In this document: piece after piece, positions 54,409 to 64,000 of the stretch | Position numbering within the stretch: the first letter of the stretch is position 1 | Layout: each line of letters begins with the position of its first letter | Assembly (NCBI RefSeq): GCF_001027285.1 | Contig: NZ_CP011509.1 | Coordinates: 10,192,501-10,256,500, forward strand | Reading direction: 5' to 3' | DNA from: Archangium gephyra | Lineage (GTDB): Bacteria; Myxococcota; Myxococcia; Myxococcales; Myxococcaceae | Length of the DNA: 64,000 nucleotides | Translations under genes and position numbers: made by a program | The notes under the pieces: model-generated | The model's database searches: none | What the model was told of the DNA's origin: nothing | What the model saw: only the letters and a program-made list of their open reading frames with translations

Positions 54409-55779
54409 CTAACCGCTGGCCGCCACGGGCTCCAGCAGCATGGGCAGCCCCCCCTTGGGCCGGAGCGCCACCAGTGGCTCCAGCTCGACAGTCCGTCCGG
54501 GCACCAACCGTGGCCGGAAGCGGCGCAGCACGCCCGCGAGCACCAGCACCATCTCCATCATCGCGAAGTGGCTGCCGATGCAGTGACGCTGGCCCGCACC
54601 GAACGGCAGGTACACCCACTTCGGCCGCTCCGCCGCGCGATCGGGTGAGAAGCGCTCCGGGTCGAACCGCTCCGGCTCCGGCCAGAACCGGGGCTGGCGG
54701 TGAATCACATAGGGCGACACGGCCACGATGAGGCGCGGATCCGCCGGGATGCGGATGCCATCCAGCACGTCGTCCTCCCGCGCCTGCCGCACCATGACCC
54801 AGGCCGGTGGATACAGGCGCATGCTCTCCTCGAGCACCTGCGCGAGGTAGCGCAGCCTGGGAATGTCCTCGGGCCCGGGCGCACGCTCCCCGAGCACCTG
54901 GGCCACCTCGTCGCGCGCCCGTTGCTCCACCTCCGGATGCTGGGACAGCAGGTACCACGCCCACGTCAGCGCGTTGGCCGTCGTCTCATAGCCGGCGATG
55001 AAGAGCGTCATCAGCTCGTCGCGCAGCTGCGCGTCCGTCATCCGCTCGCCCGTCTCCGCGTCCTGCGCCTCCATCAACATCGCCAGCAGATCCTGCCCCT
55101 CCGTCTCCCCCCGGCGGCGCCGCGCGATGATCTCGAAGACGACCGAGTCCAGCGTCTGGCGCGCCCGGAGGAACGCGCGGTTGCCCGGCGTGGGCAGGGA
55201 GAGCGGCAGCGGAAACAGCGAGAGCACCCGCTCGTTCACCACCTGCTGCCCCACCGTCAGCGAGGGCAGGACGCGGTCCGCCTCGCCCAGCACCTGCGTG
55301 GAGAAGAGCGCCCGGCTCGCGATGGAGAGCGTCGTGCGCGCCATCTCGTCCGCCATCTCCACCGGAGCGGAGGTGTCGGGGCGCGCTCGCCACCGCTCCA
55401 CCATGTGCTCCACCTCCTCCCCCATCATCCCCACCATCCGCATCAACCGCTCGCGGTGGAAGGCGGGCTGCGCGAGCCGCCGCTGCCTCATCCAGAACGG
55501 GCCTTCACTCGTCAGCAGGCCGTTGCCCAGCATGGTGCTCAACCGCTGCGCCCCCGAGCCCTTCGTGTACCGGCCCACGTTCTCCACCAGGACGTGCCGC
55601 ACGTGCTCGGGGTTCACCAGCGACACCACCCGGTTGACGGGCCCCATGCGCCACTGCACCACGTCGCCGTACTCGCGGTGCATCCGCACGAGGAACCCGA
55701 GTGACTCGCTACGCCGCTCGCGCAGACTCCCCCAGAACCAGTGCCCCCGAGGCCCCGGGGCCTCTCGCGCTCCCGTCAT
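54409..55779 (-). CDS. Cytochrome P450
   Basis: 456 residues from ATG 55779 (GGAGG eight bases upstream; GTG at 55782 is possible). I-helix AGYETTANAL, ExxR in LEESMRLYPP and the haem loop FGAGQRHCIG are intact, so it should be active. No membrane anchor is seen. It is divergent from the PKS gene, sharing a 125-bp promoter region. A tailoring role for the polyketide-peptide is possible, but the co-transcribed RNase Z-like gene argues for caution. Confidence 0.93.
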   Translation of the reverse strand: MTGAREAPGPRGHWFWGSLRERRSESLGFLVRMHREYGDVVQWRMGPVNRVVSLVNPEHVRHVLVENVGRYTKGSGAQRLSTMLGNGLLTSEGPFWMRQRRLAQPAFHRERLMRMVGMMGEEVEHMVERWRARPDTSAPVEMADEMARTTLSIASRALFSTQVLGEADRVLPSLTVGQQVVNERVLSLFPLPLSLPTPGNRAFLRARQTLDSVVFEIIARRRRGETEGQDLLAMLMEAQDAETGERMTDAQLRDELMTLFIAGYETTANALTWAWYLLSQHPEVEQRARDEVAQVLGERAPGPEDIPRLRYLAQVLEESMRLYPPAWVMVRQAREDDVLDGIRIPADPRLIVAVSPYVIHRQPRFWPEPERFDPERFSPDRAAERPKWVYLPFGAGQRHCIGSHFAMMEMVLVLAGVLRRFRPRLVPGRTVELEPLVALRPKGGLPMLLEPVAASG

Positions 55780-55904
55780 CACGTGCGCCTCCCTCTCCGC
55801 GTGTGCACCGCACGGTTTAACACGCCGCGCCATCCCAAGTTGAAGGTGATGTCATGTTCATTTCCACGGGAGTTCCCTGATAAGCGGGTGCTACAAGGAG
55901 CCGC
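55780..55904. promoter_or_regulatory. Divergent promoter region, P450 / PKS
   Basis: 125 bp between divergent starts. On the + strand, TGATAA (55878-55883) could be a -10 box, and AAGGAG sits four bases before the PKS ATG. No strong -35 is visible. A short GGGA-N2-TCCC dyad (55868-55877) may be a binding site. Confidence 0.35.
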
Positions 55905-58900
55905 ATGAGCACCGAGCAGCAGCCCCTGGAAGTCGAAGCAATCGCCATCGTCGGCATGGCCTGCCGTTTCCCCGGCGCCCCCACGGTGGAGCAGTTCTGG
56001 CACAACCTCCAGGAAGGCCTCGAGTCCATCTCCTTCTTCTCCGACACGGAGCTGGAGCGAGCGGCCATCGACCCGGCGGAGCTGGGCGACGCACGGTACG
56101 TGAAAGCGCGGGGCGTGCTGGAGGGCATCGAGCTCTTCGATGCGCGCTTCTTCGGCTTCTCTCCGCGCGAGGCCGAGCTGACGGACCCGCAGCAGCGCGT
56201 GTTCCTCGAGTGCGCCTGGGAGGCCTTCGAGCGCGCCGGGTATGACCCCGCGGCCTACGCGGGCCCCATCGGTGTCTTCGCGGGCGCCGGGACCAACGGC
56301 TACCTGCTCCACCACCTCGCCCCCGCCGGACGGCTGGTGGGCACGGCGAACGCCTTCCAGGCCATCCTCCACAACAAGAACGACCACCTGGCCACGCGCA
56401 CCGCGTACAAGCTCGACCTCAAGGGCCCGAGCATCTCCGTGCAGACCGCGTGCTCCACGTCGCTCGTCTCCGTGGTGCTCGCCTGCCAGTCGCTGCTCAG
56501 CCACCAGTGCGACATGGCGCTGGCCGGCGGCGTCTCCCTCCCCCTCCCCCAGCGCACCGGCTACCTCTACAACGAGCGCGGCATCGGCTCTCCGGACGGC
56601 CACTGCCGCGCCTTCGACGCCAGGGCCCAGGGCACCGTCCCCAGCAGCGGCGCGGGCGTGGTGCTGCTCAAGCGGCTCGCGGATGCGCTCGCCGATGGCG
56701 ACACCATCCACGCCGTCATCCGCGGCGGCGCCCTCAACAACGATGGCGCCTCGAAGGTCGGCTACACCGCTCCGAGCGTCGAGGGCCAGGCCGAGGTCAT
56801 CTCCATGGCCCAGGCCCTCGCTGGCGTGTCTCCCGACTCGCTCTCCTATGTCGAGGCCCATGGCACGGGCACGCCGATTGGCGACCCCATCGAGGTCCAG
56901 GCGCTCACCCAGGCCTTCCGCCGCCACACCCAGCGCCAGGGCTTCTGCGCACTCGGCTCGGTGAAGACCAACCTCGGCCACCTGGACACCGCGGCCGGTG
57001 TCGCCGGACTCATCAAGACCACCCTCGCGCTCCAGCACCGGCGTCTCCCGCCCAGCCTCCACTTCGAGTCTCCCAACCCGGAGCTCGGCCTCGACTCCAG
57101 CCCCTTCTACGTCAACGCGCGCCTGCGCGACTGGGACGCGCCCGCCCCCCGGCGCGCGGGCGTGAGCGCCTTCGGCCTCGGCGGTACCAACGCGCACGTG
57201 GTCCTCGAGGAGGCTCCGGAGCGCTCGGCCCCAGCGGCCTCGCGTCCCTTCCAGCTCCTCCAGTTGTCGGCCCGCTCGGACGCGGCCCTGGAGGCCATGA
57301 CGGCCCGGCTCGCACAGCACCTGGAGCGGAATCCCGGCCTGCCACTCGCGGACGTGGCGTACACACTCGCCGTGGGCCGGCGGACCTTCGACCACCGCCG
57401 CTTCGTGGTCTGCCGTGACGCCTCGGATGCCATCCAGGCGCTCGCGAGCCTCCATCCCGGACAGGTCCTCTCCCGCGTGCAGGAGCCCGTCCGCCGCTCG
57501 CTGGTGTTCATGTTCCCCGGCCAGGGCTCCCAGCACCCCGCCATGGCCGCGGACCTCCACGCCTCCGAGCCCGTCTTCCGCGAGGAGCTGGAGCGCTGCC
57601 TCGACTCCCTGCGCCGGCGCCATGACCTGGACCTGCGCCCGTTGCTCTTCCCCGCCGACCGGAATGACTCCCACGCGGCGAAGCGGCTGGAGCTGACGGC
57701 CCTCGCGCAGCCGGCCCTCTTCGCCGTCGAGTACGCGCTGGCGAAGCTGCTCGAGTCCTGGGGCCTCCGGCCGGACGCGATGATCGGTCACAGCGTGGGC
57801 GAGTTCGTCGCCGCGTGCCTCGCGGGTGTGTTCTCACTGGAGGATGCACTGGACCTCGTCGCGCTCCGGGGCCGCCTGCTGCAGGCGTGTCCTCCGGGCT
57901 CCATGCTCTCCGTCCAGCTCCCCGAGCACGAGCTGCCGCCTCTGCTCGGTGCTGGATTGGAGCTCGCCGCGGTGAATGGCCCGTCCTCGTGCGTCGTCGC
58001 GGGCGCCACCGAGGCCATCGACGCGCTGGAGCGGCGGCTCTCGGAGCGCGCGGTGACGTGCCGCCGGCTCCACACGTCCCATGCCTTCCACTGCGCCCGG
58101 GTGGACTCCGCCGTGGCCCCCTTCCGCGAGGCCGTGGCCCGGGTGAAGCGCAATCCGCCCACGCTCCGCTTCCTGTCCGGTACCACGGGCACGTGGCTCT
58201 CCGCCGAGCAGGCCATGGACCCGGGCTACTGGGCCGAGCACCTGCGCCGTCCCGTGCGCTTCGCCGACGGGCTGGATGAGCTGCTGAAGGAGGACAAGGC
58301 CCTCCTGCTCGAGGTGGGTCCGGGGCGCGCCCTGCGCACGCTCGCGCGGTGGCACCCGCGCAAGAAGCCGGACACGGCGGTGCTCAGCTGCCTGCCCTCT
58401 CCCGATGAGCAGCGCACCTCGGACGTGGAGCACCTGCTGCGCACCGTGGGCCAGCTCTGGCTGCACGGGGTGGAGGCCCCGGGTCTCTTCTCCGCGGAGA
58501 AGCGCCAGCGGGTGCCACTGCCCACCTACCCCTTCGAGCGTCAGCGCCACTGGGTCGAGCTCCGCGCCTCGCCTTCCGCGCCGGTGGGCTCGCTCGAGAA
58601 GCGCACGGACCTGTCGAGCTGGTTCTACCTCCCGGTCTGGAAGGAGTCGGTGCCCCCCACTGCTCCGAAGCCCGCGGCGGGCGCGAAGCCCACGGCCTGG
58701 CTGCTGCTCATGGATGGCGCCGGGCTCGGTGCGCGCATCGCCGAGCACCTGCGGCAACAGGGCGCGGAGGTGGTCGAGGCCCGGCTGGGACGCGCCTTCC
58801 GGCGCACCGGCGCGGACACCTTCGAGCTGGCCCCCACCCGCGAGGCCCATGCCGCCCTGCTCTCGGAGTTGCGCACCGAGGGACGCGCCCCGGAGCGCAT

Positions 58901-61900
58901 CCTCCACCTCTTCGGCCTCACGCCCGAGTCCACCGGTGTCTCCTCCGAGGACGTCCTCTCCCGCTCCTTCCACAGCCTGCTGCTGCTCGCCCAGGCGCTC
59001 GGAAGCCAGGGACTGGAGCGTCCCGTGCACCTGATGACCGTGACCAACGGCATGCAGGAGGTCACCGGCGGAGACCTCGTATGGCCCGAGCAGGCCACGG
59101 TGCTCGGCCCCGTCCGCGTCATCCCCCGCGAGTACCCCAGCCTCCGCTGCCGGAGCGTGGACGTCTCGCTGCCTCCCGCGGACAGCCTCCACTTCGACCG
59201 GCTCGCCGGGCTGCTCGCGGCGGAGGCATCCTCTGATTCCGAGGAGCCCGTCATCGCCTGGCGCAACAACCGCCGGTGGGTGCAGGGCTTCGAGCCACTC
59301 CGCATCGACGAGGGAACGCCGCCCCTGCGTGAGCGGGGCGTCTATCTCATCACCGGTGGCTTCGGCGGCATGGGGCTCTCGCTCGCCGAGGCCCTCGCCA
59401 CCCGGGTGAAGGCCCGGCTCGTGCTCACCAGCCGCACCGGTCTGCCTCCTCGCGAGGAGTGGCCCCGGCTCCTCAACGCTCCCGGCCAGGAGGAGACGCG
59501 CCGGAGGATCCGCGCCATCCAGCGGCTCGAGGAGCTGGGCGCGGAGGTGCTCGTGTGCCGCGCGGATGTCACCGAGCTGGAGGCGATGCGCGGAGCCGTG
59601 GCCGCGGCCCGGGAGCGCTTCGGTGCGCTCCATGGCGTCATCCACGCGGCGGGCGTTCCAGGTGGAGGCCTCATCCAACTCAAGACGCCCGAGGCCGCCG
59701 CCGCCGTGCTGGCCCCCAAGGTGAAGGGGACGCAGGTGCTCGCGGCGGCCATCGAGGGCCTCCGGCCTGACTTCCTCGTGGCCTGCTCCTCGCTGTCCTC
59801 CGTCGTCGGCCGGCTCGGGCAGGTGGACTACACGGCGGCCAACACCTTCCTGGATGCCTTCCTGCGCTCCTGGCACACGCGCACCGGCATCCACGCCGTG
59901 GCGGTGAACTGGGGCGCCTGGGACGAGGTCGGCATGGCCGCGCGCAAGGGCTCCCGCGAGGAGGAGCCGGTCCGCGTGCTCGACCATCCCCTCCTCCACC
60001 GCTGCCTCGTGGACACGCCGGAGCGCCTCGTCTTCGCCAGCGACATCGGCAATGGCCCCTCGCGCTGGGTGGTGGACGAGCACCGCATCGTCGGCGTCCC
60101 CACCGTCCCCGGCGTCGCCTGGTTCGAGCTGGTCCGCGCCGCGCTCGCGGAGAGGGCCCAGGGCAGGACGCTCGAGCTGGTGGACACCTTCTTCCTCTTC
60201 CCGCTGCGCGTGCCGGACGGCGAGACGCGCGAGGTCCGGCTCGTCCTCGACAAGGAGGGCGAGGACTACCGCTGGGTGGTGCGCTCGCAGCCGAAGGACG
60301 GCTCCGGCAAGGCCACCGCCCACGCCACCGGCCACGCCCGGTTCATCCCCGCTCCGGAGCCGCGGGTGCTCGACGTCGACGCCATCCGCCGCCGGTGCGG
60401 CCACACGCCCGCCTCCTTCGAGGCCGAGTACGAGGAGGACCTCGGGCCCCGGTGGCGCAGCGTCCGCCAGCTCCACGTGGGCCAGGGCGAGCTGCTCGTC
60501 ACCCTGGAGCTCCAGCCGGAGTTCTCCGCCGACTTCCAGCGGATGCACTTCCACCCCTCGCTCATGGACCGGACCTCCGGCATGGCGAAGAGCTTCCTCG
60601 CCGCGCACGGCTTCTACCTGCCGTTCGGCTACGGGCGCCTGCGCTTCCTCGGGCCCATTCCGCGGCGCATCCACGCCCACTCGCGCATCCTGGAGCAGGC
60701 GGGCTCGGATGGAGAAACGCTCGTCTTCGAGGCCGTGCTCATGGACGAGCAAGGCCGGGTCGTCGCCGAGGTCGAGCGGCTGACCCAGAAGCGGGTGAAC
60801 GACCCCGCCGCCGAGCTCCGCGCACTGGCCACCTCGGAGCAGGAGCCGGTGTCCGGCACCGGGCGGCCCGAGAGTGAGCGGCAGGAGATCCTCCCCCACG
60901 AAGGCGTGGCCGCGCTCGAGCGGTTGCTGGCGGCCCGGGTGATGCCTCAGGTGGTGGTCTCGGTGAGGGACCTGCGGGCCACCCAGGAGCGCACCGACGA
61001 GGTCGTCCGCGAGCGAATCGCCGAGGCCGTGGGTGGTTCACGCGCGGAGAGCAGCGGGCTCCAGCCCCGGCCGGGCCTCAAGACGGCCCACGTGGCACCT
61101 CGCAACGAGCTGGAGCAGAAGCTCGCCGCGGCCTGGCAGGAGGTGCTGGGCATCGAGGGCATTGGCGTCCACGATGACTTCTTCGAGCTCGGCGGCGACT
61201 CCGTCATGGCCATCCAGATCATGGCCCGGGGCAGCCGGCAGGGACTCCAGCTCAACCCGGAGCAGTTCTTCCAGAGCTCGACCATCGCGCAGCTCGCCCG
61301 GGTGCTGGAGGGACTGCTGACGCTCCAGGGTCCCGTGGTGGGCGCCGTGCCCCTCACGCCCGGGCAGCACCGCCTCCTCGGAGAGAGTCCTCCGTCCCCC
61401 ACCGAGGCGAGCCGGGTGCTGGGGCTCGACCTCCCCGGGTCCATCGAGCTTCCCCGCTTGGAGAAGGCGCTCGGAGAGGTGCTCACGCAGCACGATGCGC
61501 TCCGCCACCGCTTCGTCCGCGAGGACACGGGCTGGAAGCAGGAGGGCATGCCCCCGGGCACTGCCGTTCCGCTCCTGATGGGGGGTGACGAGACGAACCT
61601 CCAGACGAGACTCGACCCGTCCCAGGGAACGCTGCTCGTGGCGGCGCTCGCCCAACGGCCAGGACGGGAGGACCGCCTCCTGCTGGCGGGCCACGGGCTC
61701 GTGCTCGACGCGGCGTCGTGGCGCATCCTGGCCGAGGACTTGAAGCAAGCCCTGCGGCGCGAGGATGGCGAGAGCCCGCGCCCCAAGACGGCCTCGTTCA
61801 AGCGCTGGGCGGAACGTCTGGCCGAGACCGCCGCGTCCCGGAGCACCGAAGCCCCGCCTCGGGAGAACCTCACGCGCCTCCCCCTGGAGCGCACCGCGCG

Positions 61901-62570
61901 AGGACCCCTGCGCGAGCACACGGTGTCGCTGTCGGTGGAGGAGACGCGGACGCTCCGGGAGAAGCTCACGAGCGCCTGGCGCGCCGACCTGGGCGAGGCC
62001 CTGCTCATGGGACTGGCCCGCGCACTCCCGGCCTGGACGAAGGGGCGCGCGCACCTCGTCGACTTCACCCGCGACGGGCGCGGCGCGTTCGAGGGCATCG
62101 ACTGCTCCCGCACCGTGGGATGCTTCGATGTGAGCTGGCCGCTGCGTCTCGAATCGCCCGAGGGCGCCGATGAGGTAGCGCTCCTCAAAGCCATCAAGGA
62201 GCAGGTCCGCCAGCTCCCCCCGGGCGGCGCTCGCCACCAGGCCGACGTGGAGCTGCGGCTGTCGGACGAGGAGCTTCCGGAAGGGCTCTCCAGCGAGCGC
62301 CCACCGGGTGATCACGCGCTGGTGCTCGAGGGCTCGCTGTCCGGCGGCCGGCTCCACCTGCGTTGCACCCATGCGCGGGGCGCCTGCCGGGACTCGGACG
62401 TGGAACGGCTCGCCACGGACGTGCTCGGTGCGCTGCGCGCGCTGTGCTCCGGGAGCCAGGACACCCGCGCCGCCCTCACCGCCTCCGACTTCCCCCTCGC
62501 CCGCTTGGACGAGGCCCAGCTGGACACCCTCGCCCTGCTGCTCGAGCAGGCCGATCAGTCCGACGAGTGA
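55905..62570 (+). CDS. Type I polyketide synthase, KS-AT-KR-DH-like-ACP plus degenerate epimerization-like domain
   Basis: 2,221 residues. KS (about 10-435) has catalytic C183 in TACSTS, H319 in EAHGTGT and H359. AT (about 530-830) has S630 in GHSVGEF and HAFH (726-729), the malonyl-CoA type. A KR-structural region is followed by the KR (1145-1345: TGGFGGMG, Tyr 1309). A DH-like domain lies after the KR (1360-1630: H1393 in HRIVGVPTVP, but MDRTSG where DxxxQ/H is usual). The ACP has S1766 in LGGDS. The C-terminal part (1812-2170) resembles an NRPS epimerization domain with HG instead of HH at 1930-1931. The product of one extension is passed to the next enzyme. Confidence 0.93.
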   Translation: MSTEQQPLEVEAIAIVGMACRFPGAPTVEQFWHNLQEGLESISFFSDTELERAAIDPAELGDARYVKARGVLEGIELFDARFFGFSPREAELTDPQQRVFLECAWEAFERAGYDPAAYAGPIGVFAGAGTNGYLLHHLAPAGRLVGTANAFQAILHNKNDHLATRTAYKLDLKGPSISVQTACSTSLVSVVLACQSLLSHQCDMALAGGVSLPLPQRTGYLYNERGIGSPDGHCRAFDARAQGTVPSSGAGVVLLKRLADALADGDTIHAVIRGGALNNDGASKVGYTAPSVEGQAEVISMAQALAGVSPDSLSYVEAHGTGTPIGDPIEVQALTQAFRRHTQRQGFCALGSVKTNLGHLDTAAGVAGLIKTTLALQHRRLPPSLHFESPNPELGLDSSPFYVNARLRDWDAPAPRRAGVSAFGLGGTNAHVVLEEAPERSAPAASRPFQLLQLSARSDAALEAMTARLAQHLERNPGLPLADVAYTLAVGRRTFDHRRFVVCRDASDAIQALASLHPGQVLSRVQEPVRRSLVFMFPGQGSQHPAMAADLHASEPVFREELERCLDSLRRRHDLDLRPLLFPADRNDSHAAKRLELTALAQPALFAVEYALAKLLESWGLRPDAMIGHSVGEFVAACLAGVFSLEDALDLVALRGRLLQACPPGSMLSVQLPEHELPPLLGAGLELAAVNGPSSCVVAGATEAIDALERRLSERAVTCRRLHTSHAFHCARVDSAVAPFREAVARVKRNPPTLRFLSGTTGTWLSAEQAMDPGYWAEHLRRPVRFADGLDELLKEDKALLLEVGPGRALRTLARWHPRKKPDTAVLSCLPSPDEQRTSDVEHLLRTVGQLWLHGVEAPGLFSAEKRQRVPLPTYPFERQRHWVELRASPSAPVGSLEKRTDLSSWFYLPVWKESVPPTAPKPAAGAKPTAWLLLMDGAGLGARIAEHLRQQGAEVVEARLGRAFRRTGADTFELAPTREAHAALLSELRTEGRAPERILHLFGLTPESTGVSSEDVLSRSFHSLLLLAQALGSQGLERPVHLMTVTNGMQEVTGGDLVWPEQATVLGPVRVIPREYPSLRCRSVDVSLPPADSLHFDRLAGLLAAEASSDSEEPVIAWRNNRRWVQGFEPLRIDEGTPPLRERGVYLITGGFGGMGLSLAEALATRVKARLVLTSRTGLPPREEWPRLLNAPGQEETRRRIRAIQRLEELGAEVLVCRADVTELEAMRGAVAAARERFGALHGVIHAAGVPGGGLIQLKTPEAAAAVLAPKVKGTQVLAAAIEGLRPDFLVACSSLSSVVGRLGQVDYTAANTFLDAFLRSWHTRTGIHAVAVNWGAWDEVGMAARKGSREEEPVRVLDHPLLHRCLVDTPERLVFASDIGNGPSRWVVDEHRIVGVPTVPGVAWFELVRAALAERAQGRTLELVDTFFLFPLRVPDGETREVRLVLDKEGEDYRWVVRSQPKDGSGKATAHATGHARFIPAPEPRVLDVDAIRRRCGHTPASFEAEYEEDLGPRWRSVRQLHVGQGELLVTLELQPEFSADFQRMHFHPSLMDRTSGMAKSFLAAHGFYLPFGYGRLRFLGPIPRRIHAHSRILEQAGSDGETLVFEAVLMDEQGRVVAEVERLTQKRVNDPAAELRALATSEQEPVSGTGRPESERQEILPHEGVAALERLLAARVMPQVVVSVRDLRATQERTDEVVRERIAEAVGGSRAESSGLQPRPGLKTAHVAPRNELEQKLAAAWQEVLGIEGIGVHDDFFELGGDSVMAIQIMARGSRQGLQLNPEQFFQSSTIAQLARVLEGLLTLQGPVVGAVPLTPGQHRLLGESPPSPTEASRVLGLDLPGSIELPRLEKALGEVLTQHDALRHRFVREDTGWKQEGMPPGTAVPLLMGGDETNLQTRLDPSQGTLLVAALAQRPGREDRLLLAGHGLVLDAASWRILAEDLKQALRREDGESPRPKTASFKRWAERLAETAASRSTEAPPRENLTRLPLERTARGPLREHTVSLSVEETRTLREKLTSAWRADLGEALLMGLARALPAWTKGRAHLVDFTRDGRGAFEGIDCSRTVGCFDVSWPLRLESPEGADEVALLKAIKEQVRQLPPGGARHQADVELRLSDEELPEGLSSERPPGDHALVLEGSLSGGRLHLRCTHARGACRDSDVERLATDVLGALRALCSGSQDTRAALTASDFPLARLDEAQLDTLALLLEQADQSDE

Positions 62571-62594: not shown

Positions 62595-64000
62595 ATGAAG
62601 AACGTCGATGATGTCTACCGGCTCTCGCCGATGCAGCAGGGCATGCTGTTCCACAGCCTCTACTCGCCCCGGGGAGGCACCTACGTGGAGCAGGTGTACT
62701 GGCTGTGGCGCGGGCCACTCGATGCCGCGCTGCTGCGCCAGTCCCTGCAGCGGATGGTGGAGCGCCATGCCGTACTGCGCACCGCCTTCTTCTGGGAGGG
62801 CCTCGCCGAGCCCATCCAGGCCGTGCGCCGCGAGGTGAAGGTGCCCTGGGAGCAGCAGGACTGGCAGGGCCTGACGCAGAGCGAGCAGGAGGCGAAGTGG
62901 AACGCCCTGCTCAACGCCGATCGTCAGAAGGGTTTCACCCTCACCGCGGCGCCCCTCATGCGCTTCGCCGTGCTGCGGCTCGGGCCGGAGCTGTACCGGT
63001 GCCTGTGGAGCTACCACCACCTGCTGCTCGACGGGTGGTCGCTGCCGCTGTGCCTGCGGGAGCTCGCTCAGCACTACGACGCGCTCGCCCAGGGCCGCGA
63101 GCCGGAGCTGGAGACGGTGCGCCCCTTCCGGGACTTCATCGCCTGGCAGTCGAAGCGCGACCGCGCGGAGTCCGAGCAGTACTGGCGTCAGGCGCTCCAG
63201 GGCTTCACCGCGCCCACGCCGTTCTGGGTGGACCGGGGCGCCGAGCTGCCGAGCCAGGCGGACGCGACGTATGCCGCCCGCACCCTCCGCCTGCCCGCCA
63301 CCACGATGGAGCGGCTCGCGGCGCTCGCCCGCCAGCATCAGCTCACGCCGGGCACACTCGTGCAGGGAGCCTGGGCCCTGCTGCTCTCCCGCTACAGCGG
63401 CGAGCGCGACGTGGCCTTCGGCAACGTGACGTCCAGCCGCTCTCCGTCCCTGCCCGGCTCGGAGATGATGCTGGGGCTCGTCATCAACACGCTGGTGCTG
63501 CGCACGGCGGTGCCTCCCGAGGCCCGGCTCATCCCGTGGCTCAAGCAGCTCCAGGCGGACCAGGTCGCCGCGCGCCGGCATGATCAGCTGTCGCTGGTGG
63601 AGGTGCAGGGACTCGGTCAGGTGCCGCGGGGGCAGCCGCTGTTCCAGAGCGTCATCGCCATCCACAGCGGTCCGATGCCAAAGCTCCCGCCTTTCGCCGG
63701 GGGCAAGGTGACGCTGGACGGCATCGGCTACGCGGACCCCCGGACGGGGCATCCCCTCACCCTCATGGCGGACCTGGCCGAGACGCTGGAGTTGCAGCTC
63801 GTCCACGACACGGGCCGCTTCGACACCACCACCGTTGAGCGGATGCTCGGACACCTGCGCGTCCTCCTGGAGGGCATGGTGGCCGGGCCGGAGCGGCTGC
63901 TGCGCGAGCTGCCCCTGGTGACGGAGGAGGAGCGGCGCCAGCTCCTCGTGGAGTGGAACGACACCACGCGGCCCTTCCCGCGCGACGCCTGCCTGCACGA
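62595..64000 (+). CDS. Nonribosomal peptide synthetase, N-terminal condensation domain (incomplete)
   Basis: The first 468 residues are visible; the gene continues past the window. The start ATG 62595 has GAGGA four bases upstream and lies 24 bp after the PKS stop. A C domain starts at once: YRLSPMQQGMLFHSL, with the HHxxxDG motif intact (SYHHLLLDGW, near residue 140) and the later motifs LVINTLVLRT and RHDQLSLVEV. The downstream LLREL...VEWNDTT is the usual start of an adenylation domain. It should accept the PKS-bound acyl chain, or another amino acid, as donor. Confidence 0.95.
   Translation, partial: MKNVDDVYRLSPMQQGMLFHSLYSPRGGTYVEQVYWLWRGPLDAALLRQSLQRMVERHAVLRTAFFWEGLAEPIQAVRREVKVPWEQQDWQGLTQSEQEAKWNALLNADRQKGFTLTAAPLMRFAVLRLGPELYRCLWSYHHLLLDGWSLPLCLRELAQHYDALAQGREPELETVRPFRDFIAWQSKRDRAESEQYWRQALQGFTAPTPFWVDRGAELPSQADATYAARTLRLPATTMERLAALARQHQLTPGTLVQGAWALLLSRYSGERDVAFGNVTSSRSPSLPGSEMMLGLVINTLVLRTAVPPEARLIPWLKQLQADQVAARRHDQLSLVEVQGLGQVPRGQPLFQSVIAIHSGPMPKLPPFAGGKVTLDGIGYADPRTGHPLTLMADLAETLELQLVHDTGRFDTTTVERMLGHLRVLLEGMVAGPERLLRELPLVTEEERRQLLVEWNDTTRPFPRDACLH

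Follow-up and report, generated by a model that had tools for sequence, protein, structure and literature searches.

An epimerization-type domain that has lost its catalytic residues, followed by a predicted COM donor tail, at the end of a myxobacterial polyketide synthase

In a 64,000-nucleotide stretch of Archangium gephyra DNA (the window), a polyketide synthase (PKS) gene ends in a domain that is an epimerization (E) domain by fold and phylogeny but appears to be catalytically dead, and a tail that reads as a COM donor follows it. We consider it probable (roughly 0.75) that this domain, here called E*, is a noncatalytic docking scaffold which hands a polyketide from the PKS to a nonribosomal peptide synthetase (NRPS). 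E* and its tail make up residues 1809-2221 of the PKS (window 61329-62567), and no A domain is present among the Pfam domains of the PKS protein. The features of this region are as follows, in window coordinates.

54409..55833, minus strand, cytochrome P450, divergent from the PKS; a neighbor conserved in type A clusters only
55905..62570, plus strand, PKS of 2221 aa, KS-AT-KR-DH-PCP-E*-COM(D) (ORF and Pfam domains)
59337..60824, plus strand, KR and DH of the PKS (Pfam KR, residues 1145-1341; PKS_DH_N and PS-DH, 1361-1635)
61116..61304, plus strand, carrier of the NRPS pre-E type with an LGGDSV motif (Pfam PP-binding, 1738-1800; PCP identity comparison)
61329..62471, plus strand, E*, an epimerization-type domain, apparently catalytically dead (Pfam, sequence, AlphaFold and structure comparison, trees)
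61692..61712, plus strand, HGLVLDA at the HHxxxDG site, second His lost (motif alignment)
62067..62084, plus strand, TRDGRG at the EGHGRE site, catalytic Glu lost (motif alignment)
62106..62120, plus strand, SRTVG motif, kept (motif alignment)
62472..62567, plus strand, predicted COM donor tail LTASDFPLARLDEAQLDTLALLLEQADQSDE (ortholog conservation, PvdL alignment, HMM)
62595..64000, plus strand, NRPS C-A-PCP-TE of 1324 aa, continuing beyond the window end (L011:96-4070), with the predicted COM acceptor MKNVDDVYRLSPMQQG and a DCL-type C domain

An epimerization domain by fold and phylogeny, without its catalytic residues

A sequence-only reading had placed an E-like domain of the C/E superfamily at the C terminus of the PKS, and sequence, structural, and phylogenetic comparisons all bear this out. 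The Pfam Condensation model matches residues 1814-2104 (2.5e-24), and the closest solved structures by sequence are E constructs, namely, PvdL E2-C3 (7.4e-42) and the PCP-E constructs of GrsA and TycA. The AlphaFold model of E* (pLDDT 76.7, pTM 0.74) has the C/E fold, with E domains as its best structural matches: TycB3(E) at Z 31.2 (rmsd 3.0 over 379 residues) and TycA PCP-E at Z 31.0. TIGR01720, the NCBIfam model of the E-associated C-terminal part, scores 36.1 bits against a curated cut-off of 74.2; a score below the cut-off is expected because E* is a divergent member. In the trees, E* groups with E domains and apart from C domains that follow a PCP. It forms a single clade among E domains in a large quick tree (SH-aLRT 100) and, with a Gemmatimonadota member included, in a careful tree (96/83) which took in active E domains from the same Gemmatimonadota genome; that member, L089, sits on a long branch. 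E* is confirmed as an epimerization domain by fold and phylogeny. The motifs TPGQ (1818-1821), HGLVLDA (1930-1936), SWRIL (1938-1942), and SRTVG (2068-2072) lie at the residues first given for them, while the interval 61338-62400 proved too short for the feature, as the PCP begins near 61116 and the last position of the COM donor tail is 62567.

The motifs of 23 E* domains were compared with those of 40 E-type domains outside this group. Of these 40, 36 have the second His of HHxxxDG; none of the 23 E* does, and G, E, A, or D takes its place there. The Glu of EGHGRE is found in 37/40 comparison domains and 0/23 E*, where T, V, I, R, or M stands instead (T2055 in the window PKS). The Asn of FNYLG is also replaced, by R in 21 of the 23, and D2057, C2073, and D2075 are substitutions typical of the E* lineage, each in at least 20/23. 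The first His of HHxxxDG is kept throughout (23/23). In the E domains of GrsA and TycA, the second His and the EGHGRE Glu have established general acid/base roles. Since both catalytic residues are lost and the module offers no amino-acid alpha-carbon, the E fold would no longer epimerize, and we infer that E* is catalytically dead. The loss had originally been read from both the second His and the Gly of the HHxxxDG loop. The former holds; the Gly is a weak indicator, because HHxxxDA is also found in E domains with both His residues, and most relatives of the window's E* keep the Gly. Orthologs with an intact HH, which would have spoken for activity, were sought, and none was found among the 23 E*. 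An A-PCP-E NRPS subunit of Streptomyces sp. ERV7 (L091:2309-5539) also ends in an E domain that appears dead, a separate case with HRLAVDP and EDDGRR at the two sites.

Distribution, constraint, and origin of the domain

A search of 195 Myxococcota genomes returned 22 PKS-E* loci, the named records belonging to Archangium, Corallococcus, Myxococcus, and Pyxidicoccus. The same domain order, which the sequence-only reading proposed to look for in other myxobacterial clusters, is thus present in 22 orthologous PKSs from four genera, with an apparently dead E in 22/22. The order AT-KR-DH-PCP-E* recurs on a Gemmatimonadota contig (L089), whose E* reads HELVADA. As the same state is found in 22 myxobacterial orthologs and one Gemmatimonadota PKS, it is no local defect. 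A GGDSV carrier, the dead E, and a conserved tail are common to all PKS-E* loci. No A10 motif lies upstream of any E*, and no frameshifts or stops were found inside E* in the 22 myxobacterial orthologs. PKSs at least 60% identical in KR-DH all terminate in E*, and the relatives read at 43% KR-DH identity or less terminate in a plain ACP or ACP-TE. No report of a PKS ending in an E domain was found in the open-access literature, most subscription papers lying outside this search.

E* is under purifying selection, which in close pairs is about as strong as on a functional E domain. Its dN/dS is 0.24-0.53 in five pairs, and the corresponding range for an intact E of the same genus is 0.22-0.34; this similarity is evidence against decay. 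The proposition that E* evolves faster than intact E fails for the closest pairs once the intact-E control is applied. Identity loss in E* exceeds that in KS, KR, and DH of the same pairs. The PCP of the E* proteins has a dN/dS of at most 0.11, and the COM tail one of 0.08-0.14, but 0.33 in the closest pair, a value resting on few changes.

The carrier of the E*-PKSs has a mean identity of 45% to PCPs preceding E domains, 29.5% to PCPs preceding C domains, and 27.9% to a PKS carrier set that also contains a few NRPS PCPs. Its closeness to pre-E PCPs suggests that the ACP was probably replaced by a single PCP-E-COM cassette of NRPS origin. The domain had earlier been considered a possible relic of a removed NRPS module. 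This fits its origin, given the NRPS pre-E PCP, but not its present status, since E* is kept in all close orthologs and under purifying selection.

One member of the family has no E domain. This PKS (L156:3-7571), from the phylum Gemmatimonadota, has at its C-terminal end a pre-E-type PCP, an Ala/Pro-rich linker, and then ISAADLDRLSALIRRADERRD. Against the COM-donor HMM, this tail reaches 14.7 bits, where the best of 2000 shuffles reached 6.5; the match covers 16 residues only. In the tree, L156 groups with the E*-bearing L089 (96/94; family, 86/91). Because L156 nests in an E*-bearing family, loss of E* in its lineage is the simpler reading, and the protein suggests that the E fold as such can be dispensed with.

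The COM tail, its acceptor, and the surrounding cluster

The COM donor tail is conserved in all PKS-E* orthologs. Its junction, LTASDF..., is related to LTPSDF... of PvdL (TPSD type, at the end of the E domain), and the COM-donor HMM also matches the tails of E-terminal NRPSs, such as L003, L034, and L024, at 19.9-20.3 bits. With one exception, the Myxococcota loci read have a next gene that opens with a COM acceptor of the MKNVxDVYRLSPMQQG type, after a gap of -4 to 62 nt. In the window, the acceptor motif of the gene starting at 62595 is LSPMQQG, as at other loci, with Q for the E of L(T/S)P(M/L)QEG. At the exception (G149), PKS and NRPS lie on separate contigs, and the acceptor C domain of the latter is 79% identical. 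In Pyxidicoccus fallax (L087), the first gene after the PKS encodes a monooxygenase with a dead C-type domain and an altered acceptor motif, and the NRPS follows. Both Gemmatimonadota PKSs, L089 and L156, have a COM acceptor on the next gene too. The acceptor C domains form one group (88) within the C domains following E (DCL), apart from C domains after PCP, and that of the window NRPS has an intact HHLLLDG. A single gene broken or split by error is ruled out, because PKS stop codons, gaps, and frames vary among orthologs. When AlphaFold was given E*, COM, and C as a single chain, reading through the stop, the confidence of the model was low (pTM 0.49), with pLDDT under 50 where the two proteins meet. 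A docking element before the NRPS, one of the roles first suggested for this domain, is well supported by the COM tail, the acceptor, the DCL-type C domain, the conservation of these parts, and the retention of the tail in L156.

We propose that a PKS, probably an iterative, polyene-forming one, gained a PCP-E-COM(D) cassette of NRPS origin behind its DH, in place of the usual ACP. The acyl chain would ride on the pre-E-type PCP. The E fold would have lost catalysis and been kept as a scaffold that holds the COM donor helix and the carrier in position. The next protein begins with a DCL-type C domain; its acceptor "hand" would receive the COM helix, and the donor site of the domain would come within reach of the PCP. 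This arrangement would resemble that in the E-COM-C structures treated in PMC12402864. From these comparisons we infer physical docking, chain transfer, and a polyene product, as well as the absence of residual catalysis.

The loci fall into two types. Type A clusters consist of PKS-E*, a C-A-PCP-TE NRPS (1324 aa), a dead C-type domain fused to a monooxygenase, and the divergent P450; in type B clusters, a multimodular NRPS comes after PKS-E*. The fusion protein of the A. gephyra cluster (L011:4067-6685, 872 aa, immediately beyond the window) carries a MupA/Atu3671-family luciferase-like monooxygenase (TIGR04020). Its C-type domain has HPLVLDE, with the second His changed to Pro, and a COM-acceptor-like N terminus. 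The protein is conserved in type A clusters, with HPLVLDE or HPLILDD as the loop. In the tree, the dead C-type domain is the sister group of the acceptor C domains of the NRPSs (98), so it may dock to the same COM donor. The P450s beside type A clusters are 79-94% identical, and none occurs in the type B loci read. In G147, a single PKS-E* is followed by two NRPSs and a luciferase-like monooxygenase of the kind found in type A clusters; the second NRPS (L168, 5048-9092) is a C-A-PCP-TE protein with a COM acceptor, placed after a TE-terminated NRPS, an arrangement that suggests one donor with several acceptors. Downstream of the A. gephyra cluster, a sulfotransferase-family gene (L011:6594-7934, PF13469) has a counterpart only in the closest relative among the loci read. 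Identity with the myxochromide cluster was also considered. Module 1 of myxochromide carries a methyltransferase domain (table in PMC9581180), and this identity is unlikely because such a domain is absent from the type B NRPS modules.

Alternative explanations and relation to known systems

Lost catalytic residues, the dropping of E* by L156, and an identity loss greater than that of KS, KR, and DH are what a decaying relic of a former NRPS module, without present function, would show. Such a relic would not be expected to persist in 22/22 close myxobacterial orthologs and in a second phylum, with a dN/dS comparable to that of an intact E domain, no frameshifts or stops, and a strongly conserved PCP and COM tail on either side, and we regard decay as quite improbable. 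A new catalytic or gating role on the polyketide chain, such as alkene isomerization, proofreading hydrolysis, or condensation gating, is in our view unlikely. The conserved, lineage-specific D2057, C2073, and D2075 could mean another function, and the first His is retained in 23/23 E*; yet these residues vary, the last two (C2073 and D2075) being P and T in L032/L069 and R and E in L089. Moreover, the first His and the Asp are common to ordinary E domains, where they are probably structural, and L156 does without E*.

E* might instead recruit a tailoring oxygenase, as X domains recruit P450s (PMC8949500), and type A clusters do encode two such enzymes, a P450 conserved among them and the luciferase-like monooxygenase that carries a dead C-type domain. 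The P450 was, however, found only in type A loci while E* occurs in both types, E* falls in the E clade and not with the LCL-type C domains nearest X domains, and it precedes an NRPS, not a TE. We therefore see little chance that recruitment is its role. X domains of glycopeptide NRPSs are similar to E* as C-superfamily protein platforms with a broken HHxxxDG, but E* is of E descent and has a COM tail.

Docking through COM in trans is known between NRPS subunits such as TycA/TycB (9bfd, 9rde; PMC12402864, PMC11546977), where an E fold is likewise followed by a COM donor helix, and the DCL-type C domain that follows has the L(T/S)PMQxG acceptor. Here, in contrast, the donor subunit is a PKS, the E appears dead, and the substrate would be a polyketide acyl chain. 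LgrA also has a catalytically inactive E at a subunit end (PMC8150014), but it is an NRPS module with an A domain and a single described case, whereas E* is a conserved family on a PKS. SLiM/beta-hairpin docking likewise links a PKS carrier to an NRPS C domain (PMC13324335), through a short linear motif and a beta-hairpin domain where the E*-PKSs have a complete E domain and a COM helix.

One description has COM domains occurring in NRPS systems exclusively (PMC9113145), and another presents them as scaffolds linked to E domains (PMC12402864). The co-occurrence of COM and E was until recently "for unknown reasons"; scaffolding has been proposed, E-COM-C structures are discussed, and COM swapping is expected to remain restricted to E/C junctions (all PMC12402864). 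What is new here is predicted COM docking with a PKS as the donor subunit, the known form being described only between NRPS subunits. More tentatively, PKS-E* could be a docking hub, in which several proteins with COM acceptors (NRPS lines and the monooxygenase) share one COM donor, COM/E being a portable PKS-to-NRPS adaptor with tailoring enzymes on the same socket. The family offers a natural case on a PKS in which E catalysis appears to be gone while fold and COM are kept, and a relative in which the E fold is gone and a COM-like helix is kept. A comparison of PKS-E* with L156 would tell apart what E-COM does as a scaffold, as a docking element, and as a catalyst, and E-COM may be a ready-made adaptor for linking PKSs to NRPSs.
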